Positions 4,043-32,618 of a stretch of 32,776 bases of DNA are shown here, in pieces. Every line of letters starts with the position of its first letter. The first letter of the stretch is position 1. A model generated the notes under the pieces. That model saw only the letters and a program-made list of their open reading frames with translations, did no database searches and had not been told where the DNA came from. Location of the stretch: positions 1-32,776 of the forward strand of contig JACNJU010000031.1 in assembly GCA_014382375.1 (NCBI GenBank), read 5' to 3'. The stretch comes from Rhodospirillaceae bacterium (GTDB lineage: Bacteria > Pseudomonadota > Alphaproteobacteria > Rhodospirillales > JABHCV01). A program made the translations under genes and the position numbers.

Positions 4043-4921
4043 AATCGCGGCAAGTCCTTGCCGGTAACCGGGATAGAGAAGACGGGCGTTCAGCTCATTT
4101 TTGATGCGGCTATTATCAACCCGTTTGTTGTCGGCCCAGAATGTCCTGCCCATTGCTGACATTTTCTTTTCGGCCTCATCGAAACTCTGCACCGGCGGTG
4201 GCGCTACCCCCAGCAGTTCACAGGCATAGGTCACCACCTCCATAGGCGCAGCCGGTTCGTCGTCACAGACATTATAGATAGAACCGGGGTTTGGTCTTTT
4301 CATGGAGGCCCGAACAACATTGCCGATATCATCCACATGGATGCGTGAGAAAACGTGACCCGGCTTGTCAATACGCCTGGCCCGTCCGGCCCTGACATCT
4401 TCAAGAACATTGCGTCCGGGGCCGTAAATTCCGGCCAACCTGAAGGCGTGAGCCCCCAAGGCACGCCACCGGCTTTCAGCCTCGGCGCGCCGGCGCGCCC
4501 TGTCCGATGTTGGGGCAAGGGCGTCACTTTCATTGACCAACCCACCATCCCTGTTGCCGTAGACGCCGGTAGTCGACAGATAACCGATCCAGTCGAACGG
4601 TCCGGCAAGGATATCGCTATGAAGATCAAGAACAACGTCACCTTGCCCGTCAGGCGGTACGGATGAAAGCACATGGCTGACATTCTCAAACAGACTCTGT
4701 GGATTTTCCAGCGGTCGGTCCCGATCAAAAAGGTGGGCCTCAATGCCCAGGCTTTTAAGCTCTTCGAGATTGTCTTCTTCACGGACCGTACCGGCAACCT
4801 GCCAGCCTTCACCGATCAATACCAGGGCCAGCGCCCGTGCGCTGTATCCAAGGCCAAAACAAAAAAGACGGGGTTGGGGCATTATTTTCGCTGCTGTTAT
4901 GATGGACAAGGGGCACGACAT
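4025..4921 (-). CDS. NAD-dependent epimerase/dehydratase, SDR family (YeeZ-like)
   Basis: A 298-residue extended short-chain dehydrogenase. The N-terminal nucleotide-binding strand reads RLFCFGLGYSARALALVL, a GxGxxA variant of the usual GxxGxxG. It is followed by YLSTTGVYGNRDGGLVNE, the region around the active site, and FRLAGIYGPGRN, characteristic of the YeeZ/YbjT-like branch. The start at 4921 has AAGG eight bases upstream. A second ATG at 4882 (MPQPRLF) has no ribosome-binding site but would match the usual protein start. Physiological role is unknown; it probably acts on a nucleotide sugar or a related metabolite. Confidence 0.82.
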   Translation of the reverse strand: MSCPLSIITAAKIMPQPRLFCFGLGYSARALALVLIGEGWQVAGTVREEDNLEELKSLGIEAHLFDRDRPLENPQSLFENVSHVLSSVPPDGQGDVVLDLHSDILAGPFDWIGYLSTTGVYGNRDGGLVNESDALAPTSDRARRRAEAESRWRALGAHAFRLAGIYGPGRNVLEDVRAGRARRIDKPGHVFSRIHVDDIGNVVRASMKRPNPGSIYNVCDDEPAAPMEVVTYACELLGVAPPPVQSFDEAEKKMSAMGRTFWADNKRVDNSRIKNELNARLLYPGYRQGLAAILESIQ

Positions 4922-4969
4922 GCCCCATACCTTCGACAGGATAGATGACCTGAGGGATAAAATCTAACA

Positions 4970-5401
4970 ATGAACACGCCCAATTCGACTCCCATAATGG
5001 CCCACTTGGTGCCGCGCGGCCATTGCGTCCGCAAACCAGACAGTGAACAACCAGAGACCGTTTTCATCAAGGCCGAACGCCAGGGCACCGAATACATTCA
5101 CCATTACCTGATTCAGGTTACCCCCAGGCTGGCGGAGGGCCTGGCGATGGTCTATGTGGACCCCGAAGACATGCTGATTGATTGCGGTAACCCGCCAAAG
5201 TTTAACTATTCAGACGGCGAAACCCGAAACGATCCGGCAATCGGGGATATTTTTGAAAATCCAAAAGGCACGTATCTGAAAGTAATCGAAGACCCCAAGT
5301 CACAAAAGATGTTCGCCTTCATCGACACCACCAGTGGCGAGGTCAAGCGCCGCCAGGAACGCAACGTCAAAATCGTCTACGCTTCGTGGCAGATCAGGTA
5401 A
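4970..5401 (+). CDS. Conserved-looking unknown protein, 143 residues
   Basis: Not recognised. The protein is soluble, with no signal peptide or membrane segment. A disordered first 12 residues precede a compact domain containing the strands VPRGHCVRKP, YIHHYLIQVTPRL and MVYVDPEDMLIDCG, and a basic tail (KRRQERNVKIVY). An acidic-to-basic alternation and many aromatic residues suggest a small beta-rich fold. The start ATG at 4970 has only a distant GAGGG, so the ATG at 4997 is an alternative. It is divergent from the epimerase gene (48 bp between the starts) and ends one base before the convergent fzlA-like gene. It looks like a real gene from codon pattern and fit between its neighbours. Confidence 0.7.
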   Translation: MNTPNSTPIMAHLVPRGHCVRKPDSEQPETVFIKAERQGTEYIHHYLIQVTPRLAEGLAMVYVDPEDMLIDCGNPPKFNYSDGETRNDPAIGDIFENPKGTYLKVIEDPKSQKMFAFIDTTSGEVKRRQERNVKIVYASWQIR

Positions 5402-5402
5402 A

Positions 5403-6071
5403 TCAGAAATCCAGGTTGGCGTAATGTTTTGAAGGCGGCGCGCCGGGAATATGGTCCGAAAGCAGCGAGCGGAAACTGGGACGTGACTTGATGCGGGCAT
5501 ACCAGTCCTTGGCACTTTGGTGTTCAGCCCACGGCACATCACCCAGATAATCGATGGTCGACAAATGCGCGGCGGCAGCGATATCGGCCAATGTCATTTC
5601 ACTTCCGGCCAGCCATTTGCGTCGCTCGATCAGGTACGAAATATAGGAAAGATGGGTGTGGATATTGTTGTGTCCGGCCCTGATTGCTTTTGAATCCGGC
5701 GCACCGAGTCCCAAAAACCGCTTCATCACCTTCTCGCCGACAAGATTTTCCGTCACCTCCTCGTTAAATTTGCGATCAAACCAGGCAACCAGCCTGCGCA
5801 CCTCAGCGCGTTCCAGTGGGTGACGGCCAACCAGCGGCGGCTCTGGATGAATTTCATCCATGAATTCCGCAATCACGTCACTGCCCGAAAGCGCCGTGCC
5901 ACCCGGTTCGACCAAAACAGGCACATCACCAGCCGGATTGAGAGCCAGGAATTCGCGGCGCCGTTCCCAGACATTTTCAACCTTCAAGTCGAAATCAATC
6001 TTCTTCTCGTGAAGAACGATGCGAACTTTCCGGCAGAAAGGGTTGAGCCATAAGTGATAGAGCGTTTGCAT
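5403..6071 (-). CDS. fzlA: FzlA-like protein (FtsZ-associated, glutathione S-transferase fold)
   Basis: A 222-residue GST-fold protein: thioredoxin-like N-terminal domain (LYHLWLNPFCRKVRIVLHEK, then ENVWERRREFLALNPAGDVPVLVE), helical C-terminal domain (WLAGSEMTLADIAAAAHLSTIDYL), and a distinctive tail, DHIPGAPPSKHYANLDF. In Caulobacter, FzlA binds FtsZ and activates constriction, and a conserved C-terminal tail is part of how it works. The tail and the ERRREFLALNPAG segment here fit that group better than a detoxifying GST. That is family knowledge plus my recognition of the tail, without an alignment. It has its own promoter close to the start codon. Confidence 0.72.
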   Translation of the reverse strand: MQTLYHLWLNPFCRKVRIVLHEKKIDFDLKVENVWERRREFLALNPAGDVPVLVEPGGTALSGSDVIAEFMDEIHPEPPLVGRHPLERAEVRRLVAWFDRKFNEEVTENLVGEKVMKRFLGLGAPDSKAIRAGHNNIHTHLSYISYLIERRKWLAGSEMTLADIAAAAHLSTIDYLGDVPWAEHQSAKDWYARIKSRPSFRSLLSDHIPGAPPSKHYANLDF

Positions 6072-6079
6072 TGATTTGG

Positions 6080-6107
6080 ATTATACCGAAATGTGCAGCA
6101 CTGCAAA
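6080..6107 (-). promoter_or_regulatory. Sigma-70-like promoter of the fzlA-like gene
   Basis: On the minus strand there is a perfect TATAAT (6085-6080), with TTTGCA (6107-6102) 16 bases upstream. Only 8 bases separate the -10 box from the ATG at 6071, so the transcript would begin at or very near the start codon. There is no Shine-Dalgarno sequence before the ATG, which fits a leaderless mRNA. Confidence 0.5.
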
Positions 6108-6221
6108 TCATTGATACACGACCACTTCACGATGATGTTATTTCCAGCTTGTAGGCAATTATGCAAGATTGTCGAATCATTAAAAAAAAGGAGGTTGGCC
6201 CTTTAGGCTGGCGCTGTCCAA

Positions 6222-7202
6222 ATGCTGATCAAGAACAAGATTTTATCCGACATTAAAAGCTCGGAGATCACGCCGAAATCGGTGTTTATGAACCGCCGTC
6301 ACTTTATCAAATCCGCCGCCATTGCCAGCGCCGGCTCGGCCTTGATGCCCGGCCTTCTGTCATCAAGCGCGCTGGCGGCAACCGATCCAAAACGCGGCAA
6401 GCCCCTTGTTGGCATTATCAAAAGCCCGTTAAGCACCAGCGAGGAGCCGACACCCTACAACCACGTCACCACATACAATAACTTCTACGAATTCGGAACC
6501 GGCAAGGATGATCCGGCTGTCATGGCCGGGGATTTCAAACCCCGGCCATGGAAGGTCCAGGTTGGCGGCGAAGTTGGTAAACCGGGTGTTTATGACTTTG
6601 ACGACCTGATCAGGCCCCACAAACTTGAAGAGCGCATTTACCGCTTTCGGTGTGTGGAGGCGTGGTCGATGATCGTGCCCTGGGTCGGCATTCCACTGGC
6701 TGAAATCATCAAGCGGTTCGAACCAACTTCAAAAGCCAAATACGTGGCCTTTGAAACCCTCAATGACCCCGAACGGATGCCCGGACAGGTGCGGCGCGTA
6801 TTGAGTTGGCCCTACGTTGAAGGCCTGCGCATGGACGAAGCCATGAACCCGCTGACCCTGATGGCCGTCGGCCTGTATGGTGAAGAACTGCTGGGCCAGA
6901 ACGGCGCGCCGATCCGTCTTGTCGTGCCATGGAAGTACGGTTTCAAATCGATCAAGTCCATCGTCGGCATCCGGCTGGTCGACACTATGCCGCCGACGAC
7001 CTGGAACCGCTCGGCCCCGCATGAATACGGCTTCTACGCCAACGTCAATCCGGAAGTCAGCCATCCACGCTGGAGCCAGGCCAAGGAACGCCGCCTGGGT
7101 GGCGGTTATTTCTCGCCAAAAGTCGAAACCCTTAAGTTCAATGGTTACGGCGAAGAAGTCGCCAGCCTTTACGACGGCATGGATTTAAGTAAATCTTTTT
7201 AA
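6222..7202 (+). CDS. msrP: Protein-methionine-sulfoxide reductase catalytic subunit MsrP (YedY)
   Basis: Periplasmic molybdopterin enzyme that reduces methionine sulfoxide in envelope proteins. The 326 residues start with an N-terminal segment ([22 protein letters not shown]), then a Tat signal, [20 protein letters not shown], ending near SSALA. A long pre-Tat segment is also seen in E. coli YedY, which supports the upstream start. The molybdenum-ligand Cys is in [10 protein letters not shown]. The only strong Shine-Dalgarno (AAGGAGG, 6188-6194) is 27 bases from this ATG, which is unusual. MsrQ follows after one base, as in the usual msrPQ pair. Confidence 0.93.
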
Positions 7203-18351: not shown

Positions 18352-19632
18352 TTACGCTTCCAAAATCTTTGAGGCTGCCTCAACCGCTTTGTAGGCACTC
18401 GCGAAGGAGATGCCGGCGCCGCAACGTTGGCGAATCCAGTCCTGATGAGCCAACACGATACCGGCGGCGAAAAGGCGTTCGCTGGCGGGATTGCCGTTGG
18501 CGTCCAGGGGGCGATAGCATCCATCAACTTCTATTCCAGAACGATTAATCGGATGCCCTCCTGCATCGAAATAATCGGGATTGTGCCAATCGTTTCGGTT
18601 GTCGGGCTGGCTCACCGGTATTCCCGCCAGGGTTTCGCGGACGCCATGGCGATCGGCGGCAAGCCCGCCTGAAAGGAAACGGCCCGTGGCCAGAATGGCC
18701 GCCTGGGATTGAATTTGGATCTCGCCGAAACTGTCTTCCAGGTTAACAATGATGCCGTCCTCATTCAGGTCAATCCGATTGGCTTTGTGTTGTGGCACCA
18801 GCATCAATCCTTTGTCCGGTAGCGTCCCTTCAAACAACTCACGAAGCCTTATTCCCGGCACGGCAGGCGGCATGGTGGGGATTTCAAAAACCGGAACGCC
18901 GATTAGTTTTTCCATTTGGGCATGAACCACGTCCGAACCGTGAATGCCCAGAATAGCAGGAAGGCCGACAACCTTGGAGTCTCCCAAAACAGCCTTGATG
19001 CGCTTAGCCAGACGTTTCTGGTTTTCGGCGACTTCAAGCGAGCGGGCCATGACTTCCACATAAACCGAAGCGCCGCTTTCCATATCCGGAAAGGCGACCG
19101 TCTCGGCCCCGAGGCCGGGCCAGGATGATGACAGGTTGGCGACCATTTCCTTGGCGCTAAAGCCCTGCAGACCGATGAAATCAACAATCAACGTTTGCGC
19201 GCCTTTGCTGGCCGCTTCGACACCGCCAAGCATGGTTTTCGGAACCGACAGTGTCGGCTTGGCGATGCCGCCCGGCAGCAGGGCCATTAAGTTGTTCTCG
19301 CCCGGTTGCGTGTATCCAAGGCCGAGGGCGGACAGAGCTTCAGTAAATTTGGAAAAAGCGGTTCGGATGTCTTTGTCGTCAATGCGGGACAGCGGATGAT
19401 CGGGCTCGGTTTTGCGCAAAGCCTCAATCCCCCGCCAGGGATCGTCGATGACCTCGCCGCCATCACCCCCGAGCAAGTCGAAGTAGCCGGTGGTGTAGGC
19501 CACCGCCCCGGTGTTGCCGATCTGGGCCGTCTGGATGCCACGATCCAGGGCGAACATGCTGGCTGCAAAACCAGCAAGGCCGGAACCGATCACCGTCACC
19601 TGGGTGGTGTATTGTCTCAATTCCCGTTTCAT
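18352..19632 (-). CDS. glpB: Anaerobic glycerol-3-phosphate dehydrogenase subunit B
   Basis: 426-residue flavoprotein of the GlpB family. FAD-binding N-terminus: TQVTVIGSGLAGFAASMFAL, then TTGYFDLLGGDGG; C-terminal SERLFAAGIVLAHQDW and CGAGISFASAYKAVEAA. In the GlpABC complex it passes electrons between the GlpA active site and the iron-sulfur membrane subunit GlpC. It overlaps glpA by 4 bp (ATGA). It is the last gene of the operon. Confidence 0.92.
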   Translation of the reverse strand: MKRELRQYTTQVTVIGSGLAGFAASMFALDRGIQTAQIGNTGAVAYTTGYFDLLGGDGGEVIDDPWRGIEALRKTEPDHPLSRIDDKDIRTAFSKFTEALSALGLGYTQPGENNLMALLPGGIAKPTLSVPKTMLGGVEAASKGAQTLIVDFIGLQGFSAKEMVANLSSSWPGLGAETVAFPDMESGASVYVEVMARSLEVAENQKRLAKRIKAVLGDSKVVGLPAILGIHGSDVVHAQMEKLIGVPVFEIPTMPPAVPGIRLRELFEGTLPDKGLMLVPQHKANRIDLNEDGIIVNLEDSFGEIQIQSQAAILATGRFLSGGLAADRHGVRETLAGIPVSQPDNRNDWHNPDYFDAGGHPINRSGIEVDGCYRPLDANGNPASERLFAAGIVLAHQDWIRQRCGAGISFASAYKAVEAASKILEA

Positions 19633-21242
19633 GAGGACGACCCGGACCCGTTCTCTTTTTTAAAGTCGAGACCTAAAAGGCCGCAATGAAAGGCTTCCGC
19701 CAATTCCATCTGCGGCATCTGCTTACCCCACAAAACGGGCCGCAAGCCTTTAAACCTTTCGGCCAAGAAGTCACGCATGTGATCGCGTCCCTCGACGCCC
19801 GAATAGACGTCGCTGTCATAAAGATAGGATGAAACCCGTGCGGCGCAGAAGGAGCCCTGACAGGTTCCTTTGCCGACGCGCGAGCGCAATCCGATGGCGC
19901 GCAGTGTCATATGGCTTTCCGCGCCGGGCGCGGTCTCGACAATTTCATCAATGGCGGAACGCGGAACCATTTCACATTCACACAGGATGGCGTCCGTCGG
20001 ATCGTTGCGCCGGTACCAAAAACGCGGTGCATATCCGGGTTCGGTCCAGCGCACGCTGTCGCCTGCGGGCAAGGGTTCGCTGGCCGATTTACACGGAGCC
20101 TTCTTGCCCATTCGGCGTGTCACCAGATCGCCCGTCTTTTCCGCCATCAGGCGATAGGTCGTCAACTTGCCGCCAACCAGACTGGTGAAATTTTTAAGCC
20201 CCTGATCCTCGTGATCAAAAAGCTGAAACCCCCGGCTCGCCTTTCGTCCGTCCATCCCGGCATCGGATGATTGCAACAAGGGGCGCACGCCACAGAAGGC
20301 GCGAATAAAACGGGTGTCCCTTAACACCGGCAGCATGGGCATGCCCTCGTTCAGGATGTGGTCGACTTCATCAACGGTTGGGCGCAGCCCTTCAAGGCTG
20401 TCGACTTTATCGGATGTCGTCCCCAAAAGGGAAACGGTGCCGCCCGGTACCAGAATATCGCCATCCCCCGGCGGACGCAGGCGGTTGACGACCCCATTGC
20501 AAAGGCGCGAATTACTGACAATCAACGTTCCCTTGACATATAGCAGATCGACATCGGTGCAGCCCGCCAGTTGAGCAATATTCCTGGCCCAGGCTCCGCT
20601 CGCGTTGACGACCTGCTTGGCGCTAATGCGAACGCTCTCCCCGGACCGAAGGTCGCGGCACAAGGCGCTGGCAATCGTGCCATCGGCAATGTCAAACTCA
20701 ATCACCTCGGTGTGCGGTAGGTAGGTGCTATCTGTCAGTTGCTGGGCATGATGGACGTTGCCCAGCGTGATGTGGAACGGGTCGATGCTGGCGTCCGGCA
20801 CGACGTAGGCGGCGAAGACGGTGTCGGAAAGCTGGGGCTCCCTTTTCCTGGCTTCCTGAGGACTTAAAGACTGGCAGTCGATACCGGCCTTGGCGCAGTG
20901 TTCAGGAAAGCGCTCGGCAAAGGCCGGATCGTCCCCTTCGACGGCGACAAACAAGCCGCCGCAATCATCAATGCATTCCGGCGCCATACGCTTGATGATA
21001 TCGGATTCCATTCGGCATTCGGCGGCCGTCTCCGCATCGCTTGAGGCATAACGACCGCCACTGTGAAGCAGCCCATGATTGCCGCCCGACGCCCCGGCGT
21101 TCAGGTCCTTGCGTTCCACCAGCAAACACTGGAAACCGCGCAAGGCAAGATCGCGCATGATGCCCGTTCCGGTGACGCCGCCGCCGATGATCAGAACCTC
21201 GGTGTCATAGGTTTTCGTTCCAGCCGGATCAATGGTGCTCAT
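19629..21242 (-). CDS. glpA: Anaerobic glycerol-3-phosphate dehydrogenase subunit A
   Basis: 537 residues. FAD-binding motif EVLIIGGGVTGTGIMRDLAL, substrate-binding region GASGGNHGLLHSGGRYA, and a C-terminal BFD-like [2Fe-2S] domain with CECEMV (about residue 413) and GKGTCQGSFCAARV. The length and domain order match E. coli GlpA. It oxidises sn-glycerol-3-phosphate to DHAP with quinone or fumarate respiration as sink. It overlaps glpC upstream and glpB downstream by 4 bp each, so the subunits are made in step. Confidence 0.95.
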   Translation of the reverse strand: MSTIDPAGTKTYDTEVLIIGGGVTGTGIMRDLALRGFQCLLVERKDLNAGASGGNHGLLHSGGRYASSDAETAAECRMESDIIKRMAPECIDDCGGLFVAVEGDDPAFAERFPEHCAKAGIDCQSLSPQEARKREPQLSDTVFAAYVVPDASIDPFHITLGNVHHAQQLTDSTYLPHTEVIEFDIADGTIASALCRDLRSGESVRISAKQVVNASGAWARNIAQLAGCTDVDLLYVKGTLIVSNSRLCNGVVNRLRPPGDGDILVPGGTVSLLGTTSDKVDSLEGLRPTVDEVDHILNEGMPMLPVLRDTRFIRAFCGVRPLLQSSDAGMDGRKASRGFQLFDHEDQGLKNFTSLVGGKLTTYRLMAEKTGDLVTRRMGKKAPCKSASEPLPAGDSVRWTEPGYAPRFWYRRNDPTDAILCECEMVPRSAIDEIVETAPGAESHMTLRAIGLRSRVGKGTCQGSFCAARVSSYLYDSDVYSGVEGRDHMRDFLAERFKGLRPVLWGKQMPQMELAEAFHCGLLGLDFKKENGSGSSS

Positions 21243-22531
21243 GGCAAACCAATGTCCATCAGGTCGGGACCTAAATATTTGCGTTCATTCTCACCCAGAA
21301 TTCCGAGCGCGAGGCAGATCAACGTCCAGAAATGAACGACCCTATAGTCTCCGCCGTAGACGTCGCCAAGATCGGTGATTTGGGAATGGCAGTTATGACA
21401 AGGTGTCAGCACGTACTGTGCCTGGGTCACGGCAATCTGGTCGAACTTGCGTTTGCCGTAAGCGCGGCGCTGTTCGTTCATGCCCGCCTGCAGGAAACCG
21501 CCGCCGCCGCCGCAACAGTAATTTGCGCTGCGGCACGGCTGCATGTCGATGACATTGTCAGCCCCGACCAGTTCCCGGGCGACGTAACGCAAATCGTCGG
21601 CTACCGGGTCACCCATTGATTTACGAACCAACTGGCACGGGTCCTGAATGGTGAACTTGATGTTGCCGGTGTTCCAGTCCGAATTAACCGGAAGCTTTCC
21701 TTCCCTGATCCACTGGGCGTAATAACTGATAAGACTGGCGGCCTCAAAATTGGTTTCCAGTCCGAATTTTTCGACCCCGGCCCACATGGTATAGAAGGAA
21801 TGACCGCATTCGGTATTGATCCAGACCTTGCAGTCCAGTTCATTGATCGCGTCGACCCGCTGTTTGACCATTTCCTTCCATGTCGATTCGTCACCCGTAA
21901 ACATACAGAAGTTTTCCGCCGCCCAGCCTTTCGAGGCATAGCTCCAGTCGGCCCCTACATAGTCGAAAATTTTCCATAAAGGCCCCAGTTCTTCGGGTTC
22001 GACAGCCGGTTCCCTGGAATTCTGATTGACGAAAAAATACGCGCCCTTTTTGTCCATGGGCACTTCCAGGTCTTTAAAACGCTCGTCGCCCAGATGCAGT
22101 TCCTCGACGGTCTCTTCGATAATCTCGACAAAATCGTCAGGCATGACTCCCATGGCGCTGGTGCTGGCTGACATCATCTGCGCCTCGCACGAGCGAACGA
22201 TGCCCTGCGGTTTTTTCTCTTTCGGCCACGCGCCCCGGGCATAACCGACCAGCACGGATACATCGATGTTCATGGGGCAAACATAGGCGCAGCGCTGGCA
22301 CATGGTGCAGGTCCAGATCCAGGGCGTGTTCGAGAGTTCCTCGTTCATGCCCAGCATGGCCATGCGGATAAAACGCCTGGGATCTATGCCGTGCAGGCCG
22401 GAAGCAGGACAACCGGACGAACACAGCCCGCAGGCCAGACAGGAATCATAACTGGCGTTCTCGGGCAATAACTCATGAGCCTTGGCCTGGAAGTCGATTG
22501 TCGGGGTAATGATTTCTTCCTGAGCGGTCAT
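21239..22531 (-). CDS. glpC: Anaerobic glycerol-3-phosphate dehydrogenase subunit C (Fe-S, HdrD-like)
   Basis: 430 residues. Two [4Fe-4S] motifs, CLACGLCSSGCP and CTMCQRCAYVCP, are followed by a cysteine-rich CCG-type domain with CRSANYCCGGGGG and TPCHNCHSQI; a second, incomplete version of that motif (TECGHSFYTMW) precedes it. This is the membrane-associated electron-transfer subunit that connects GlpAB to the quinone pool. It lies 12 bp after glpK and overlaps glpA. The divergence from E. coli GlpC is notable, so it could also be called a heterodisulfide-reductase-related subunit, but position settles the role. Confidence 0.88.
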   Translation of the reverse strand: MTAQEEIITPTIDFQAKAHELLPENASYDSCLACGLCSSGCPASGLHGIDPRRFIRMAMLGMNEELSNTPWIWTCTMCQRCAYVCPMNIDVSVLVGYARGAWPKEKKPQGIVRSCEAQMMSASTSAMGVMPDDFVEIIEETVEELHLGDERFKDLEVPMDKKGAYFFVNQNSREPAVEPEELGPLWKIFDYVGADWSYASKGWAAENFCMFTGDESTWKEMVKQRVDAINELDCKVWINTECGHSFYTMWAGVEKFGLETNFEAASLISYYAQWIREGKLPVNSDWNTGNIKFTIQDPCQLVRKSMGDPVADDLRYVARELVGADNVIDMQPCRSANYCCGGGGGFLQAGMNEQRRAYGKRKFDQIAVTQAQYVLTPCHNCHSQITDLGDVYGGDYRVVHFWTLICLALGILGENERKYLGPDLMDIGLP

Positions 22532-22543
22532 GATGGTGTCGCC

Positions 22544-24037
22544 TCAGGAGTCGTTCAGGGTTCGACGGACGGACTCTTTCCAGCCTGCGTAGAGAGTCTC
22601 ACGCGGCTCCTGATCCAACGCCGGTTCAAAGCGTTGATCCAGCGCCCAGGTATCAGCGAACCCTTCCAGACCATGATAGAGTCCGCATCGCATGCCGGCC
22701 AGATAAGCCGCGCCCAAAGCCGTCGTTTCCTGCACCCGAGGTCTGTCGACCGGAACGCCCAGAATGTCGGACAGAAATTGCATGGTCCAGTCCGACGCCG
22801 TCATTCCGCCATCGACACGCAGAACGGTATCTGATCCAGCCCCGGCCCAGTCGCCCTTCATGGCTTCCAGCAGATCGCGGGTTTGATAGCCAACGCTTTC
22901 CAATGCCGCCTTCGCCAATTCCGCCGGGCCGGTGCCACGTGTGATCCCGTATAATGCGCCGCGGGCCTCGGCGTCCCAATATGGCGCGCCGAGGCCGACG
23001 AAGGCAGGCACCAGATAGACGCTCTGGTTTTCATCGGCCTGTGACGCGAGGTTTCCGGCTTCGGCGGCGTTATCAATAACCTTCAAGCCATCGCGCAGCC
23101 ACTGCACCGCTGCTCCGGCGATGAAGATCGACCCCTCAAGGGCGTACGTCGGCTTGCCATCCAGTTGATAGGCAATCGTCGTCAGCAACTTGTTTGATGA
23201 GACGACCGGAGTTTCGCCCGTATTCAAGACCGCAAAACAGCCCGTGCCATAAGTCGATTTCATCATGCCGGGTTTAAAACAGGCCTGACCGACGGTCGCC
23301 GCCTGCTGGTCGCCAGCGATACCGCGAACGGCTATGGCGGTGCCGAACACGTCAGGCGACGTTTCGCCGAAATCGGCGGCGCTGTCCTTTACCTCCGGCA
23401 ACATCGACATCGGCACGTTGATGTGTCTGCAAAGCTCTTCTGACCAGGCCCCCTTATGGATGTCGTACAGCAGGGTGCGGCTGGCGTTTGTAGCATCGGT
23501 CGCATGCACCTTGCCGCCGCTCAAACGCCAGAGAAGAAAACTGTCGACGGTGCCGAAGGCAAGTTTTCCGGCTTCCGCCTGCGCCCGTGCGCCGTCCACG
23601 TTATCCAGAATCCAGGCGATTTTCGTGCCGGAAAAATAAGGGTCCAGCAGCAAGCCCGTTCGGGCCGAAACATCGGCCTCAAGTCCGTTCGCCTTCAATC
23701 CGGCGCAATTATCGGCGGTTCGCCGGTCCTGCCAGACAATGGCGCGGTGGATCGCCTTGCCGGTTTCGCGATCCCAGACAACGGTCGTTTCGCGCTGGTT
23801 TGTGATGCCTATGGCGGCAATGTCGCCGGCGGCAATTCCGGCCTTTTCGATGGCCTCGCTACAAGTGGATAGTGTTGTGTTCCAAATGTCTTCCGGCTCA
23901 TGTTCGACCCATCCCGATTGCGGAAAGTGTTGATGGAATTCTTCCTGGGCCACGGCGACCGGCGCATGCTGCGCGTCAAAAACGATGGCGCGTGACGATG
24001 TCGTCCCTTGGTCGATGGCGAGGATAAAACCTGACAT
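22544..24037 (-). CDS. glpK: Glycerol kinase
   Basis: 497-residue FGGY-family kinase that phosphorylates glycerol to sn-glycerol-3-phosphate. N-terminal phosphate-binding loop [40 protein letters not shown]-terminal signature around [18 protein letters not shown] and [13 protein letters not shown]. The length matches the family. AGGAG lies seven bases before the ATG. The gene starts 2 bp after the glpD stop and is followed by glpC. No changes in active-site residues were noticed. Confidence 0.97.
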
Positions 24038-24039
24038 GA

Positions 24040-25584
24040 TTATTCTCCTGCTGCGACACCGGCGACACCGGCGCCGCTTTCTCCCAATTTCAACTGCCGG
24101 AACCAGTCTTCCAGCTCGGCTTTGTTCTGCTGTGATAGTCTAAGCCCCAGCTTGCTTCGCCGCCAGAGAATGTCATCGGCGCTACGCGCCCACTCATCGT
24201 GAACCAGATAATCGACCTCACGCTGATACAGCCCCGCACCGAAATGACGGCCCAGATCGCCCTCGGTTTTCGCATCGCCCAGAATTTTAAAACTCAAAGT
24301 CCCATAGGCGCAAACCAGCCTTTCGATCAATTCTGGGTTTATCCGTGGGTAAAGTTCCTTGAGTTTGGCCATCAAATCAGGCCGCCCTTCAATTGGGAAA
24401 TCGCCTCCGGGAAGGGAGGAATGTTTTGTCCAGGATTGATCCATTCTCGGCAAATGCGGCTTCAGTTTGTCAAGAACCTGCTCCGCCAGGTGTCGGTATG
24501 TCGTTATTTTTCCGCCAAAAATGTTGAGGACGACCGGTACTTCCTCCCCCCCATCCAATTCGAGAACAAAATCACGGGTTGCCTCCTGGGCTTCAGAAGA
24601 TCCATCGTCGTATAAGGGACGAACCCCGGAATACGACCAGATGACCTGATCGGGCGAAATTGCTTTTGAGAAATATTCACCGGCCGTTTCGCATAGGTAC
24701 GCGATTTCCTTATACTCTGCGTGGACGTCTTCTGGACGCCCTGAATAATCCAGATCGGTTGTTCCAACCAGGGTGAAATCTGATTCGTAGGGGATCGCAA
24801 AAATTATCCTCCGGTCGGCATTTTGGAAAATGTAGGCTCTGTCATGATCAAACATCCGGGGAACGACAATGTGACTTCCCTTTACCAGACGAATTTTTGA
24901 CCGGCTCGAGGTCGTGATGCGGTCCGAAATAACGTCCGCGATCCAGGGGCCACTGGCGTTGACCAGGACGCAAGCCTGTGTCGTGTAAATTTGTCCGGTC
25001 AATTTGTTCTGGATTTCAAGTCGCCATTTGCCGCCCTCGCGTTTGGCCGACAACACTTCTGTTCGGGTGTTGATGGCGGCTCCCCTGCCCCGTGCATCCA
25101 TGGCGTTGAGCGCGACAAGGCGGGCGTCGTCTACCCAGCAATCGGAATATTCAAACCCTTTGGTGAGGGAGGGTCGAAGGGGGGCGCCGACTGGCGAGGC
25201 CCTGAGATTGACGTAATTTGATCCCGGCAACCGTTCGCGCCCGCCCAGATGGTCGTAAAGAAAAAGCCCAAGCCTTATCATCCAGGCGGGACGCAGGTTT
25301 TTTACGTGTGGCAGGACAAAACGCAATGGATGAATGATATGCGGAGCCATGCCCCACAGAACTTCCCTCTCGCGAAGGGATTCGCGAACCAGGCCGAATT
25401 CATAATATTCCAGATAACGCAAACCGCCGTGAATCAGTTTTGTCGATGCCGACGATGTTCCGCTCGCCAGATCATCTTTCTCTGCCAAATAGACCGACAG
25501 GCCCCGTCCGGCCGCGTCTCGGGCTATGCCGCAGCCGTTAATGCCACCACCGATGATGGCGATATCGTAGAGGGTCTCGCCCAC
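24040..25584 (-). CDS. glpD: Aerobic glycerol-3-phosphate dehydrogenase
   Basis: A 514-residue FAD enzyme on the inner membrane that passes electrons to ubiquinone. FAD motif [50 protein letters not shown], and the C-terminal DAO_C domain. I place the start at GTG 25584 (MGETLYD) because GGGAGG precedes it by four bases. A GTG at 25602 would add six residues and sits before the ribosome-binding site. It is the first enzyme gene after glpR and is followed by glpK with a 2-bp gap. Confidence 0.95.
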
Positions 25585-25609
25585 TTTTCCTCCCGGCACC
25601 ACTTATTTG

Positions 25610-25686: not shown

Positions 25687-26457
25687 TTAGTCGCTGTCCG
25701 CGAGGATGACCTCAACGTCGTGCTCCCTGCAAATCCTTGCAAAGGGGGCAGGCGGAGGGTTGTCAGTGACGAATCCGGATAACTGGGAAATGTGTCCGAT
25801 TCTGACGGGAGCCGTGCGCTCGAACTTAGTGCTGTCGGCCACCAGAATACAATTTCGGGCGTTTTCAATAATAGCCTGGGCCGCCTTAACTTCGCGATAG
25901 TCATAATCGAGAATAGAGCCGTCCTCATCAATCGCAGAAGCGCCGATGATGGCGTAGTCCATTTTGAACTGGCGGATGAAGTCGACGGTCGCCTCGCCGA
26001 CCACACCGCCGTCAGCCGAGCGAACAACACCACCCGCCACGATGACTTCAATATTGGGAACACCGTGCAAGATATTGACAACATTGATGTTATTGGTGAT
26101 GACCATAATGCCGCGCTTGCCTCTCAGGGCATAGGCCACCTGCTCTGTTGTCGTGCCGATGTTTATCATCAGGGAGCTGTTGTCCGGCACCAGCGAAGCT
26201 GCCTTGAGGCCGATCTGCTTTTTCTCATCAGACGCGAGCGAGCGCCTGGCTTCGTAATTATAATTTCTGACTCCTGAAACGAGAATTCCCCCGCCATGGA
26301 CGCGTTGGAGAATTCCCTGCTCACATAACTCATTCAAATCCTTGCGGATTGTTTGCGGGGTGACATCAAAATGTTCGGCAAGTTCATCGACGACCACTCG
26401 CCCCTGATGGCGCGCGCGGTCAACAATGTCATGCTGACGGGGTGATACGGGTTTCAT
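25687..26457 (-). CDS. glpR: GlpR, DeoR-family repressor of glycerol metabolism
   Basis: 256 residues. N-terminal DeoR helix-turn-helix: RQHDIVDRARHQGRVVVDEL, then VTPQTIRKDLNELCEQGILQRVHGG. The C-terminal sensor domain has IGTTTEQVAYAL and DGSILDYDYREVKAAQAII, the ISOCOT-type sugar-phosphate pocket. Sensing of glycerol-3-phosphate is family knowledge. It stands at the head of the catabolic operon and next to the shared control region, so it probably represses both that operon and the transporter genes as well as itself. No ribosome-binding site is visible before the ATG. Confidence 0.92.
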   Translation of the reverse strand: MKPVSPRQHDIVDRARHQGRVVVDELAEHFDVTPQTIRKDLNELCEQGILQRVHGGGILVSGVRNYNYEARRSLASDEKKQIGLKAASLVPDNSSLMINIGTTTEQVAYALRGKRGIMVITNNINVVNILHGVPNIEVIVAGGVVRSADGGVVGEATVDFIRQFKMDYAIIGASAIDEDGSILDYDYREVKAAQAIIENARNCILVADSTKFERTAPVRIGHISQLSGFVTDNPPPAPFARICREHDVEVILADSD

Positions 26458-26622: not shown

Positions 26623-28359
<1,737 letters not shown>

Positions 28360-28514: not shown

Positions 28515-29576
28515 ATGCCTCTTGAACTGAAAAACGTCGTTAAAAAAGTGGGAGCCGATACCCACATCTACGACACAAGCGTCGAGCTTGTAGAGAACCA
28601 GTTCAATATCCTGTTGGGAACGACCCTGGCCGGAAAAACCACGCTGATGCAGTTGATGGCCGGTCTTGAAACGCCAACGTCCGGGGAAGTCTGGTTCGCC
28701 GGAAAAAACGTCACCGGCGTCCCGGTCCAAAAACGCAACGTTTCTTTCGTGCACCAGCAATTTATCAACTACCCCCATTTTAATGTTTATGAAAATATTG
28801 CTTCGCCATTGCGAGTCGCCAAAATTTCCAAAAAAGAAATTGAAGAGCGGGTTGGGCATGTCGCCGACCTTTTGAAACTGACCCCCATGCTGGGACGAAA
28901 GCCGAGTGAACTTTCCGGCGGCCAGCAACAGCGAACGGCCCTGGCCCGTGCGCTTGTCAAGGATGCCGATCTTGTGCTGCTGGATGAGCCGCTGGCCAAT
29001 TTGGACTACAAGCTGCGTGAAGAGCTGCGCGATGAATTGCCGAAGCTTTTTCAGGATCGCGACTGCACTGTCGTTTACGCCACGACCGAACCGACCGAGG
29101 CTCTGTTACTGGGCGGGAATACCGCAACCGTGCACGAAGGGCGCATCACTCAATTCGGCAATACTTCCGAGGTGTATCGAAAACCGTCGGATTTACTGAC
29201 GGCGGAAGTCTTCTCGGACCCACCGATCAACGCTGCGGAGGTCGAACTCGCAAGTGGGCAGTTCTCCCTCAATGGGCAGGTAAACTGGCCCTCCGCCAGC
29301 ACGAAACTGGCCAATGGTTCGTACAAAATGGCTATTCGCCCCCATTATGTCACCCTGGAGCAAAATTCTGAAAAGGCGCTCAAACTGGAAGGCCGGGTTT
29401 TGGTTGCCGAGCTCAGCGGTTCTGAAAGCGTCGTCCACTTTGAGGTGGAAGGCCATCCCTGGGTTTCGCAATCACCGGGCATTCATGCCATTGAAGTCGG
29501 TCAGGCGATTGATTTTTACCTTGATACAACCCAGTGCCTGTACTTCGACGACAACGACAAACTGATTGCGGAATGA
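28515..29576 (+). CDS. glpS: Glycerol ABC transporter ATP-binding protein GlpS
   Basis: 353 residues, CUT1/MalK-type ATPase with a C-terminal OB-like regulatory region. Walker A GTTLAGKTT, Q-loop FVHQQFINYP, normal signature LSGGQQQRTALARALV, Walker B LVLLDEPLANLD. The switch segment reads YATTEPTEA where the sister protein has YVTHDQTEA, so the H-loop His is Thr. The start is put at ATG 28515 (MPLELKNVVKKVG); the longer frame begins with GTG 28485 and adds ten residues without family support. The genes downstream form the rest of the importer. Confidence 0.88.
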   Translation: MPLELKNVVKKVGADTHIYDTSVELVENQFNILLGTTLAGKTTLMQLMAGLETPTSGEVWFAGKNVTGVPVQKRNVSFVHQQFINYPHFNVYENIASPLRVAKISKKEIEERVGHVADLLKLTPMLGRKPSELSGGQQQRTALARALVKDADLVLLDEPLANLDYKLREELRDELPKLFQDRDCTVVYATTEPTEALLLGGNTATVHEGRITQFGNTSEVYRKPSDLLTAEVFSDPPINAAEVELASGQFSLNGQVNWPSASTKLANGSYKMAIRPHYVTLEQNSEKALKLEGRVLVAELSGSESVVHFEVEGHPWVSQSPGIHAIEVGQAIDFYLDTTQCLYFDDNDKLIAE

Positions 29577-29586
29577 GGGTCGCAAA

Positions 29587-30654
29587 ATGTCAAAAATCAG
29601 TTTGAAAAACATTCGCCACAGCTACATGGACAACCCGGTTGATGACATAGACTGGGCCCTTAAACAAATGAGCGTCGATTGGTCGGATGGCGGCGCCTAC
29701 GCGCTGCTTGGTCCTTCGGGTTGCGGCAAGACCACCCTTCTCAACATTATTTCAGGCCTGCTGAAACCGTCGGAAGGGGAAGTCTGGTTCGGCGACCAGG
29801 AGGTTTCCAATTTTCCGACCGATCAGCGAAATATCGCCCAGGTATTCCAGTTCCCGGTCGTATACGACACCATGACTGTTTACGACAATCTCGCCTTTCC
29901 CCTTCGTAATCGTGGTATCCCGGAAACCGAGATCGATAAAAAGGTGCGTGAAATCGCCAGTATGCTCGACCTTGAAAAAACCCTGATGACCCGCGCCTCG
30001 GGATTGACGGCTGACGGCAAACAGAAAATTTCCCTCGGCCGCGGCCTGGTCCGTTCTGACGTCAACGCCATCATGTTCGACGAACCGCTGACCGTGATCG
30101 ACCCCCACCTGAAATGGGAACTGCGTTCCAAGTTGAAGGAACTGCACCAGCAGATCGGCACAACCATGATTTATGTGACCCATGATCAGACCGAAGCGTT
30201 GACGATTGCGGATCAGGTCGTCGTCATGCAGGAGGGACAGGTCGTCCAGATTGGAACCCCGGTGGAACTTTTCGAGCGCCCGCAACATACATTCGTCGGC
30301 CACTTCATCGGATCGCCCGGCATGAACCTGCTGCCCTGTGATTTCGACCTTGGCAAAATTGTTTACGGCGGCGCCCAGATCGAAACATCCAACCAGCTGA
30401 ACGTTGATAATACTGCAACCCGTTTTGAAATAGGGGTTCGCCCGGAGTTTATCCGCTTCGCTGACAGCGGCATTCCGGTTCGCGTCGAGAAAATGAGTGA
30501 CGCCGGGCGCTTCAGCATCGTTGAGACGCGCCACGGAGAAGATATCATTAAATTACTGGTTCCTGACGGCGGTCATGTGCCTTCAGAGAGCGCCTTTTTG
30601 CAGTTTGACCCGAAACACACGCACATTTACGCTGACGACTGGATGGTGGACTGA
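29587..30654 (+). CDS. glpT: Glycerol ABC transporter ATP-binding protein GlpT
   Basis: 355 residues, second ATPase of the same importer. Walker A GPSGCGKTTLL, Q-loop VFQFPVVYDT, Walker B AIMFDEPLTVID and H-loop YVTHDQTEALTIAD are good. The ABC signature is degenerate: LTADGKQKISLGRGLV instead of LSGGQ. The C-terminus has the regulatory extension (IGVRPEFIRF). It starts 10 bp after the glpS stop with GAGGG seven bases before the ATG. Together with GlpS this gives one intact and one defective ATP site (see findings). Confidence 0.88.
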   Translation: MSKISLKNIRHSYMDNPVDDIDWALKQMSVDWSDGGAYALLGPSGCGKTTLLNIISGLLKPSEGEVWFGDQEVSNFPTDQRNIAQVFQFPVVYDTMTVYDNLAFPLRNRGIPETEIDKKVREIASMLDLEKTLMTRASGLTADGKQKISLGRGLVRSDVNAIMFDEPLTVIDPHLKWELRSKLKELHQQIGTTMIYVTHDQTEALTIADQVVVMQEGQVVQIGTPVELFERPQHTFVGHFIGSPGMNLLPCDFDLGKIVYGGAQIETSNQLNVDNTATRFEIGVRPEFIRFADSGIPVRVEKMSDAGRFSIVETRHGEDIIKLLVPDGGHVPSESAFLQFDPKHTHIYADDWMVD

Positions 30655-30657
30655 GCC

Positions 30658-31524
30658 ATGGACAACAGGAGATCAAACAAGAAGGCCTGGTTCTTTGTTC
30701 TGCCGGTTGTCGCACTGGTCGCTTTTAACGCCATCATCCCGCTGATGACGGTGGTCAATTATTCGGTGCAGGAAACCTTTGGCAACAATGTCTTTTTCTG
30801 GGAAGGCGTTAAATGGTTCGAGCAGGTTCTGAATTCGGATCGCTTCCACGATTCACTGGGTCGCCAGTTGATCTTTACCGGTATTATCCTGTCCATCGAA
30901 GTACCCCTGGGCGTTGCGATTGCGCTGACCATGCCGAGAAAAGGCGTCTGGGTATCCGTCTGCCTCGTCTTCATGGCCATGCCGTTGCTGATCCCCTGGA
31001 ACGTCGTCGGGGCGATGTGGAACATATTCGCCCTGCCCGATATTGGCCTTCTGGGTTACGCCCTGAATTCAATCGGCTTCGATTACGACTACACCCAGCA
31101 ACCTCTTTCAGCCTGGTTTACGACAATCCTGATGGATGTCTGGCACTGGACGTCGCTGGTCGTGTTGCTGGCCTATGCGGGCTTGCGCTCGATCCCTGAC
31201 GCTTACTATCAGGCCGCCAAGATTGATGGCGCTGGCGCGTGGGCCGTGTTCCGCCATATTCAACTTCCGAAAATGAAACGGGTTCTGACCATCGCAATCC
31301 TGCTTCGTTTCATGGACAGTTTCATGATTTATACAGAACCCTTCGTTCTGACCGGCGGCGGCCCCGGAAACTCGACGACCTTCCTGTCCATCGATCTGGT
31401 CAAGGTGGCGCTTGGTCAATTTGATCTGGGTCCGGCCGCCGCGATGTCGCTGATCTACTTCCTGATCGTTCTGCTGGTCAGTTGGGTGTTCTACACCTTG
31501 ATGATGAAAAACGAGGGCCAGTGA
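30658..31524 (+). CDS. glpP: Glycerol ABC transporter permease GlpP
   Basis: 288-residue CUT1-type inner-membrane permease (MalF-like) with about six helices, for example WFFVLPVVALVAFNAIIPLM and FLIVLLVSWVFYTLMM. The cytoplasmic EAA loop is YYQAAKIDGAGAWAVFRHIQLPKMK, which contacts the ATPases. It begins three bases after glpT and its stop overlaps the glpQ start by one base (TGATG). Confidence 0.92.
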   Translation: MDNRRSNKKAWFFVLPVVALVAFNAIIPLMTVVNYSVQETFGNNVFFWEGVKWFEQVLNSDRFHDSLGRQLIFTGIILSIEVPLGVAIALTMPRKGVWVSVCLVFMAMPLLIPWNVVGAMWNIFALPDIGLLGYALNSIGFDYDYTQQPLSAWFTTILMDVWHWTSLVVLLAYAGLRSIPDAYYQAAKIDGAGAWAVFRHIQLPKMKRVLTIAILLRFMDSFMIYTEPFVLTGGGPGNSTTFLSIDLVKVALGQFDLGPAAAMSLIYFLIVLLVSWVFYTLMMKNEGQ

Positions 31525-32321
31525 TGAATAAAAAATACATCGTTCCCGTCATTTACATCGTCTGCCTGATGCTGCCGATTTACTGGCTGGTCAAAATGTC
31601 GTTCATGACAACCAATGAGATTCTCGGCACCTTCGCCTTGTGGCCGAAGGAAATCACGTTCGACAACTATATTAAGATTTTCACCGACCCGACCTGGTAC
31701 AACGGCTACTTCAATTCCCTGACCTATGTGGGCATCAACACGGTCATATCGGTCAGCGCCGCCCTGCCTGCCGCTTACGCATTCTCCCGTTTCAGGTTCC
31801 TGGGCGACAAGCACCTTTTCTTCTGGTTGCTGACCAACCGCATGGCGCCACCCGCCGTTTTCGCCTTGCCGTTCTTCCAGCTTTATTCGGCGGTAAATCT
31901 GTTCGACACCCCGATGGCCGTCGCCTTGGCTCACTGCCTGTTTAACATCCCGCTGGCGGTGTGGATTTTGGAGGGTTTCATGTCGGGCGTTCCGAAAGAA
32001 CTGGATGAGACAGCGTACGTGGACGGCTATCCTTTCTGGAAATTCTTCGTCCGCATATTCATACCGACCATTGCCGCCGGGATCGGGGTCACCATGTTCT
32101 TCTGCTTCATGTTCTCGTGGGTCGAACTGTTGCTGGCGAAGACGCTGACATCCGTCGCCGCCAAGCCAATCGCCGCGACCATGACCCGAACGGCCAGCAC
32201 CTCCGGCTATGAGTTGGGGCTATTGGCGGCGGCCGGAACACTGACGATTATCCCGGGCGCTTTCGTGATTTATTTCGTCCGCAACTACATCGCCAAGGGC
32301 TTCGCCCTGGGCCGCGTTTAG
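31524..32321 (+). CDS. glpQ: Glycerol ABC transporter permease GlpQ
   Basis: 265-residue MalG-like permease with six helices (KYIVPVIYIVCLMLPIYWLV at the start). The EAA loop reads ELDETAYVDGYPFWKFFVRIFIPTI. The start ATG at 31524 overlaps the last base of glpP; an in-frame upstream start at 31482 would place 14 residues in glpP coding DNA and is rejected. It pairs with GlpP as the glycerol channel. Confidence 0.92.
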   Translation: MNKKYIVPVIYIVCLMLPIYWLVKMSFMTTNEILGTFALWPKEITFDNYIKIFTDPTWYNGYFNSLTYVGINTVISVSAALPAAYAFSRFRFLGDKHLFFWLLTNRMAPPAVFALPFFQLYSAVNLFDTPMAVALAHCLFNIPLAVWILEGFMSGVPKELDETAYVDGYPFWKFFVRIFIPTIAAGIGVTMFFCFMFSWVELLLAKTLTSVAAKPIAATMTRTASTSGYELGLLAAAGTLTIIPGAFVIYFVRNYIAKGFALGRV

Positions 32322-32336: not shown

Positions 32337-32618
32337 ATGGGACTGTCATGGATGGCCTGGACATGGCCAACAGCCGCCTTCTTCATCTTTGTCGCCTGCG
32401 CCATCATCCTGATGGGCTTTCTGGAGTGGCGACGCCCCGGCGGCGCCCCCCGGCACGGTATTCTGACCCTAGACACCACCCGCGGCGACCGCTTGTTCAT
32501 CACCCTGCTGGGCAGCGCCTTCATTTTCCTGGGCTGGCTGGCCCTGATGGGAACGCCATTATGGGGCGCACTGGCGATATCAATCGCCTACGGGTTTGCC
32601 GTTTTCAGATGGGTGTGA
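32337..32618 (+). CDS. glpU: Small membrane protein GlpU (DUF2160)
   Basis: 93 residues, two to three hydrophobic segments (FFIFVACAIILMGFLEW, LFITLLGSAFIFLGWLALM, LWGALAISIAYGFAVFRW) and the conserved RGDRLFITLLG middle typical of DUF2160. AAGGAGGAG precedes the ATG. In rhizobia glpU lies in the glycerol transporter operon and its role is unclear; it may be an accessory of the permease. The operon seems to end here: AGAGGC-TGAATAC-GCCTCT (32633-32651) follows, a weak hairpin without a T-run. The remaining 125 bases show no gene. Confidence 0.88.
   Translation: MGLSWMAWTWPTAAFFIFVACAIILMGFLEWRRPGGAPRHGILTLDTTRGDRLFITLLGSAFIFLGWLALMGTPLWGALAISIAYGFAVFRWV

Follow-up and report, generated by a model that had tools for sequence, protein, structure and literature searches.

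Do the two ATPase subunits of a bacterial glycerol importer contribute equally to the hydrolysis of ATP? The question is raised by glpS and glpT, two adjacent genes in a stretch of 32,776 nucleotides from Rhodospirillaceae bacterium (contig JACNJU010000031.1; hereafter the window). They belong to an ATP-binding cassette (ABC) transporter operon that, by its gene context, seems to encode a putative glycerol importer. In an ABC dimer, each ATP site is composed of the A-loop, Walker A and B, Q-loop and H-loop of one subunit and the signature of the other (PMC7756269). We call the composite site with the Walker motifs of GlpT and the signature of GlpS site C, and the site with the Walker motifs of GlpS and the signature of GlpT site D. 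The original prediction, made from the letters of the window, was that GlpS combines a normal LSGGQ signature with a Thr in place of the H-loop His (YATTEPTEA), that GlpT combines a normal H-loop (YVTHDQTEA) with a degenerate signature (LTADGKQ), and that site D is thereby doubly defective and site C canonical. We find these motifs in the window (Table 1), and we show here that the complementary defects occur together in every scorable orthologous GlpS/GlpT pair. As read from these motifs, two unlike ATPase subunits seem to power the glycerol importer, one of their ATP sites being complete and the other crippled. The transporter and degenerate ATP sites are already known; what is added here is the conservation of the asymmetry in a MalK-type importer.

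The conservation is strict in both subunits. LSGGQ is present in all 200 scorable GlpS proteins, and the H-loop position is occupied by Thr in 154 and by Ser in 47 of the 201 sequences, never by His. In GlpT, the H-loop His is kept in 202/202 and LSGGQ is found in 0/202. The GlpT signature carries Ala or Pro at position 3 in 202/202 and Asp at position 4 in 200/202 (Gly and Ala once each), position 5 is variable (G, A, N, E, Q and D, among others), and the D-loop reads TVI throughout (202/202). The near-fixed Asp replaces the second glycine of the signature, which by residue numbering corresponds to the cystic fibrosis change G551D; in GlpT this change is the wild type. GlpS has further deviations: Walker A position 3 is changed from Ser to Thr in 200/200, and the A-loop lacks its aromatic residue in 198/200 (Phe in the remaining two). 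Invariant in GlpS are the Walker A Lys (200/200), the Q-loop Gln (200/200) and the Walker B Asp-Glu (201/201). In the window proteins the Q-loop regions read VHQQF in GlpS and VFQFP in GlpT. LSGG and the H-loop His are both found in 52/52 control paralogues, among them the 10 top-scoring ABC ATPases that this genome has besides GlpS and GlpT (of 71 such matches, these 10 were read). Sequencing error or decay as a source of the deviations was rejected, because they recur in 199 distinct pairs among the 200 loci with both subunits. Orthologues with only one of the two changes were looked for as well, and none is among the scored pairs.

Relatives were gathered by GlpT, and the set of pairs is therefore unselected with respect to the GlpS H-loop. 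They come from three samples. Of 150 near relatives, 41 contributed, as did 85 of 398 phylum genomes; the third sample consists of the 80 best among 597 confirmed stretches of named genomes, and its search patterns were IAQVFQFP and V[VI]YDTM[TS]V, neither of which is the signature. The final set holds 202 GlpT and 201 GlpS sequences, the window included and three copies of its own locus excluded. Locus L077 stops before GlpS, and the GlpS of L026 is partial and lacks the region from Walker A to the signature. The S-like rows in L062 and L117 are ordinary paralogues and were reassigned to the controls, which comprise 10 paralogues from this genome, 40 weaker matches from near relatives and 2 from named-genome loci. 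Sampling is centred on the relatives of the window in Pseudomonadota, and other phyla were reached via plasmid records and one metagenome-assembled genome titled Desulfobulbaceae (L072). The scored loci of the named-genome sample include genomes titled as alpha-, beta- and gammaproteobacteria. As a side observation, genomes titled Pelagibacteraceae or Pelagibacterales (SAR11) also carry the pair (L054, L056-L061, L063-L065, L067-L071, L073), with GlpT 62-65% identical to that of the window.

AlphaFold models of the two subunits (mean predicted local distance difference test scores, pLDDT, of 85.5 and 90.3) match MalK-type chains over their whole length, and Escherichia coli MalK chains give Z scores of 33.4-35.9 with GlpT and 36.0-38.9 with GlpS. 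Hence, the motif alignment is sound and the regulatory domain is kept in both predicted structures. Both subunits are predicted to have the MalK fold with a C-terminal TOBE/OB regulatory domain (the TOBE_2 score of GlpT, 20.8, is just below the cut-off of 21). The nearest solved structures by sequence are general MalK-type ATPases, and the best NCBIfam match is UgpC (NF008653), with both subunits under its 432-bit cut-off (GlpS 249.4, GlpT 281.8). MalK, UgpC and MsmX are like GlpS and GlpT in fold, length and domain order; these ATPases are homodimers with two consensus sites. To compare sites C and D, we used 29 motif positions that are at least 90% fixed in the 52 controls, assigned the D-loop to the side of the signature and scored a position as changed when the residue is lost in most members. 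By this measure 14/29 positions are changed at site D versus 1/29 at site C (Fisher p 0.00016, with positions that are not independent). The A-loop and Walker A changes of GlpS and the D-loop change of GlpT all fall on site D. Complementary defects leave one composite site at consensus, and the predicted contrast between the two sites is upheld. Judged from its residues, however, a doubly defective site D is not equal to a dead one, because the Walker B Glu of GlpS is invariant. Since the Walker A Lys and the Q-loop Gln are invariant as well, along with the Walker B Asp, site D probably retains binding of ATP-Mg.

If GlpT paired with itself, neither site would have LSGGQ, and if GlpS did so, neither would have the His; a complete site is expected only in the heterodimer. 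Two different ATPase subunits are encoded together in all 200 loci that hold both, with GlpS immediately preceding GlpT in the same orientation (200/200) and a gap between the aligned ends of 2-317 bases (median 35). In the phylum sample GlpT is found in 85/398 genomes and GlpS, searched alone, in 85/396, and the listed genomes agree by eye; GlpS adjoins each of the 85 GlpT loci, and no listed genome has one subunit alone. In a quick tree of 41 pairs (the window and every fifth locus) and the 52 controls, in which long branches are flagged, GlpS and GlpT each form one clade with a support of 100, on stems of 2.3 and 2.0 changes per column. Could the two proteins nevertheless work apart, each as a homodimer or partnered with some other MalK-type ATPase in the cell? 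A multitask ATPase of the MsmX type is common to some CUT1 importers, and this genome has other MalK-like ATPases, the nearest of them 40% identical to GlpT. The incomplete sites of either homodimer and the constant company of the two genes argue against such an arrangement, and we regard it as very improbable.

We put a probability of about three in four on an obligate GlpS-GlpT heterodimer in which ATP is hydrolysed mainly at one site and held at the other. The heterodimer would drive the GlpPQ permease with two ATP sites that are unequal by design. Site C, with the A-loop, Walker A/B and His of GlpT and the LSGGQ of GlpS, would be complete and perform hydrolysis. Site D, in which the Walker A/B motifs of GlpS come without His and without the A-loop aromatic and face the signature and D-loop of GlpT, would bind ATP-Mg, with hydrolysis slow or absent, and may mainly clamp the dimer or tune gating. 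About one ATP might then be used per glycerol, an economy that would suit a cheap three-carbon substrate. We infer from sequence comparison that the subunits heterodimerise and that ATP occupies site D, and likewise the site-specific hydrolysis, the ATP stoichiometry and any saving of energy. This arrangement is supported by an asymmetry that is seen in all scored pairs and concentrated in one composite site, by the unbroken gene linkage, and by the recurrence of this split in a second operon type (five pairs) and in a further, more decayed pair (L283), both described below.

Several observations weigh against it. One changed position, the D-loop Ser of GlpS that is replaced by Ala or Val, lies on site C. 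The invariance of the GlpS Glu would be odd if site D never hydrolysed. The H-loop residue of GlpS (T/S) and the signature residue of GlpT (A/P) seem to covary in the raw counts, Ser occurring with Pro in 34 of 35 Pro cases, on a tree with only 5 and 3 changes, numbers at which a sign test cannot reach significance. Finally, the complex itself is deduced from the genes, and pairing with another MalK-type ATPase is conceivable. It might also be that both sites hydrolyse and that the substitutions alter only rate or coordination at site D, for example with the Glu as base and Thr/Ser replacing His. The invariant Glu, Walker A Lys and Q-loop Gln of GlpS would fit this, as would an H-loop residue that is always Thr or Ser (201/201). 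However, both signature glycines are gone in 201/202 GlpT, the A-loop aromatic and the H-loop His are missing on the same site, and changes of H-loop and signature usually cripple an ABC ATP site. H-loop and signature both act at the gamma-phosphate (PMC7756269). Hydrolysis at both sites therefore seems rather unlikely to us. Relaxed selection is another explanation, in which site D drifts without function and a single site is enough for cheap glycerol uptake. Some positions of site D indeed vary, such as signature position 5 of GlpT. Drift is harder to reconcile with the changes that are fixed, namely the Walker A Thr3 (200/200) and the T/S of the H-loop (201/201) in GlpS and the signature Asp (200/202) and TVI (202/202) in GlpT, which span loci titled as alpha-, beta- and gammaproteobacteria, with similar changes recurring in Streptomyces. 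We consider drift quite unlikely.

Complementary defects that leave one consensus site are known from TM287/288, BmrCD, TAP1/2 and CFTR. Pdr5 resembles GlpS/GlpT in that one half combines Walker-side defects with an intact signature and the other half has the signature defect, and restoring all four of its motifs to canonical impaired transport (PMC7756269). In TM287/288 the D-loop of the partner extends to the nucleotide bound at the degenerate site (PMC7756269), to which the altered D-loop of GlpT on site D is a parallel. GlpS/GlpT differ from these exporters in being part of a MalK-type importer that has a binding protein and whose subunits are separate. Moreover, GlpS keeps the catalytic Glu (201/201), which exporters usually change at the degenerate site (in part from PMC7756269). 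ABCG5/G8 shows a different pattern of motif changes (PMC7756269), and a change of the Walker B Glu is therefore not treated here as defining for degenerate-site dimers. The glycerol transporter GlpSTPQUV is known from Rhizobium leguminosarum VF39, and a similar cluster, Rmet_2229-2234, from Cupriavidus metallidurans, where its derepression increases resistance to zinc and cadmium and where it is dispensable for growth on glycerol (PMC7912956). Both are like the window in gene set and in nearness to glpR, glpK and glpD; the accessible part of that paper reveals no structural difference from the window and makes no mention of a motif asymmetry of the ATPase pair. In searches of open-access literature, only some of them aimed at the motifs, we found no account of such an asymmetry in GlpS/GlpT or in another CUT1 importer, which does not show its absence from print. 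Importers with a degenerate site do exist: RbsA and NupO belong to another importer class, CUT2. These fused ATPases have been described from sequence as having one degenerate ATP site (PMC11466899), which they share with GlpS/GlpT, but they hold two domains in one chain and have lost the Walker A Lys in the second half. Work on degenerate ATP sites has mostly dealt with exporters, as far as the papers cited here show. The glp pair, in a sugar-type importer, has kept across great evolutionary distances an asymmetry of the kind found in exporters such as CFTR and TAP. How transport is coupled to ATP is best understood for importers, maltose MalFGK2 among them. A MalK-type importer with a fixed degenerate site lets the role of the second site, and the ATP used per substrate, be asked in an importer architecture.

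Asymmetric pairs also occur beyond the glycerol operon. When plasmids were searched with GlpS, a match of 43% identity turned up in Streptomyces chartreusis, and a second operon type with an S/T pair is present in Streptomyces chartreusis, Streptomyces sp. NBC_00271, Ensifer adhaerens, Ponticoccus alexandrii and Tabrizicola piscis (L255, L259-L262), on plasmids of two Streptomyces (Actinomycetota) and of alphaproteobacteria. The S subunits of the two Streptomyces are 95% identical. The H-loop residue is Thr in 5/5 S subunits and His in 5/5 T subunits, and the T signatures read LTADD, LTADD, LTAGE, LSADL and LTADQ, so that the expected co-occurrence of both defects across relatives extends to these five pairs. 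The permeases are 25-32% identical to GlpP/GlpQ, and DUF2160 gave no match at an expect value (E) of 1e-3 in the fetched stretches. An alcohol dehydrogenase lies upstream in the three annotated loci; the remaining two carry no annotation. Our guess is that the substrate is perhaps a small alcohol or diol. As a side observation, the three annotated loci share a regulator, the alcohol dehydrogenase, a binding protein, two permeases and two ATPases.

A profile of four second-type T subunits, run against the 398 genomes, returned the 85 GlpT at E <=4.5e-125 and the next matches from 4.7e-88. The SGGQ core is missing in 8 of the 20 next matches read (one per genome, among the matches listed). One of them belongs to the L283 pair (genome G535; positions 4787-6989 of the locus), which adjoins a semialdehyde-dehydrogenase-type gene and is more decayed than GlpS/GlpT. 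Its partner 1 has GPPKSGKSV, LSGGEKQ, a Walker B with LDDP (Glu to Asp, in this pair only) and YATSDSLEA, in which the H-loop His is lost; partner 2 has GPSGCGKTT, LDAGTRQ and YVTHDQTEA. In a 59-row tree built without the motif columns, partner 1 groups with GlpS (93, below the 95 mark) and partner 2 with GlpT (99), on long branches, a placement that fits, and does not prove, a single ancient asymmetric pair. Further pairs of this type were found in 0/279 genomes of the class at E 1e-80, a search that has no positive control in the sample and shows little. The L283 S subunit had no plasmid match at 1e-70. The T subunit matches 22 plasmid records at E 1e-60, the 15 listed ones being 37-40% identical, and each of the four that were fetched holds one ATPase with an ordinary SGGQ and His. 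The other seven matches without SGGQ belong to a tandem CUT1 family found in 21/299 genomes (L284-L288, L292, L293, L296-L316, partly from the same genomes). Its subunit A has the signature LAGGD, LSSGD, LAAGD or, in 4/21, LSGGD, its subunit B has LSGGE or LSGGQ, and a dihydroxyacetone-kinase-like stretch as in L284 (37-100% identity) is present in 7/7 wide loci. This family shares with GlpS/GlpT the side-by-side ATPases and the altered signature in one of them. It is unlike them in that the signature change stands alone, with the His in both subunits, and in that the subunits form clades of their own. The latter makes the family parallel to GlpS/GlpT rather than a demonstrated ancestor, and going by its motifs we class it as a case of mild, one-sided asymmetry.

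The statement that asymmetry is unusual for a CUT1 importer consequently needs to be narrowed. It agrees with the single-ATPase CUT1 systems seen, but tandem-ATPase CUT1 systems are repeatedly asymmetric, with three strongly asymmetric operon types and the one mild, separate family. A natural graded series runs from symmetric MalK through the mild tandem pairs and GlpS/GlpT to the L283 pair. A possible scenario, to which we give somewhat less than even odds, is that the asymmetric MalK-type pair is ancient and arose once, before at least three operon types (the glycerol glp, the alcohol-dehydrogenase-linked and the semialdehyde-dehydrogenase-linked one) split, that it is found in both Pseudomonadota and Actinomycetota, and that it uses a single ATP for each small, low-energy substrate. 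The kept Glu would then place it midway from symmetric importers to exporters, whose sites are more decayed, and the L283 pair would be a further stage. One related system (L258, 3377-8960) has a DUF2160-like stretch, permeases 29-36% identical to GlpP/GlpQ and one ordinary ATPase, and is a possible symmetric comparison for GlpS/GlpT.

The window holds the complete GlpSTPQUV gene set, that is two CUT1-type ATPases, two permeases, the DUF2160 protein and the binding protein, in a plus-strand run of glpV, glpS, glpT, glpP, glpQ and the DUF2160 gene, and glpR-, glpD- and glpK-like genes adjoin on the minus strand (Table 1). The order S-T-P-Q-U is found in 51/51 loci with full flanks, taken from the best 80 of the 597 named-genome stretches.

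Table 1. Genes of the glycerol transport locus and motifs of its two ATPases, in positions of the window.
Feature	Position	Strand	Remarks
glpK-like FGGY kinase	22544-24037	-	
glpD-like oxidoreductase (flavin adenine dinucleotide, FAD), glycerol-3-phosphate dehydrogenase type	24040-25602	-	
glpR-like DeoR regulator	25687..26457	-	
glpV, solute-binding protein	26623..28359	+	SBP_bac_1; ATG within longer listed frame
glpS, ATPase subunit 1	28515..29576	+	353 residues from ATG; open frame confirmed
GlpS Walker A GTTLAGKTT	28617..28643	+	residues 35-43; altered, Lys kept
GlpS signature LSGGQQQ	28911..28931	+	residues 133-139; canonical
GlpS Walker B/D-loop LVLLDEPLANLD	28971..29006	+	residues 153-164; catalytic Glu kept
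GlpS H-loop YATTEPTEA	29076..29102	+	residues 188-196; T191 (codon 29085-29087) at the expected His position
glpT, ATPase subunit 2	29587..30654	+	355 residues from ATG; open frame confirmed
GlpT Walker A GPSGCGKTT	29710..29736	+	residues 42-50; canonical
GlpT signature LTADGKQ	30004..30024	+	residues 140-146; degenerate, Asp at second Gly of LSGGQ
GlpT Walker B and altered D-loop AIMFDEPLTVID	30067..30102	+	residues 161-172
GlpT H-loop YVTHDQTEA	30172..30198	+	residues 196-204; H199 at 30181-30183
glpP, permease 1	30658..31524	+	BPD_transp_1
glpQ, permease 2	31524..32321	+	BPD_transp_1; ATG within longer frame listed from 31482; Pfam scan input 31527-32318
DUF2160 small membrane protein, glpU position	32337..32618	+	PF09928

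Two minor observations concern the neighbourhood of these genes. The DUF2160 protein accompanies the glycerol operon in all 51 full-flank loci and was undetected in the second operon type; an open-access literature search found no paper containing the word DUF2160. Beside glpK and glpD, on the minus strand at 18352-22531, lie genes whose order and domains (an FAD oxidoreductase, an FAD-binding protein and a CCG/4Fe-4S protein) resemble those of GlpA, GlpB and GlpC, and an anaerobic-type and an aerobic-type glycerol-3-phosphate dehydrogenase are thus possibly encoded together in one cluster.

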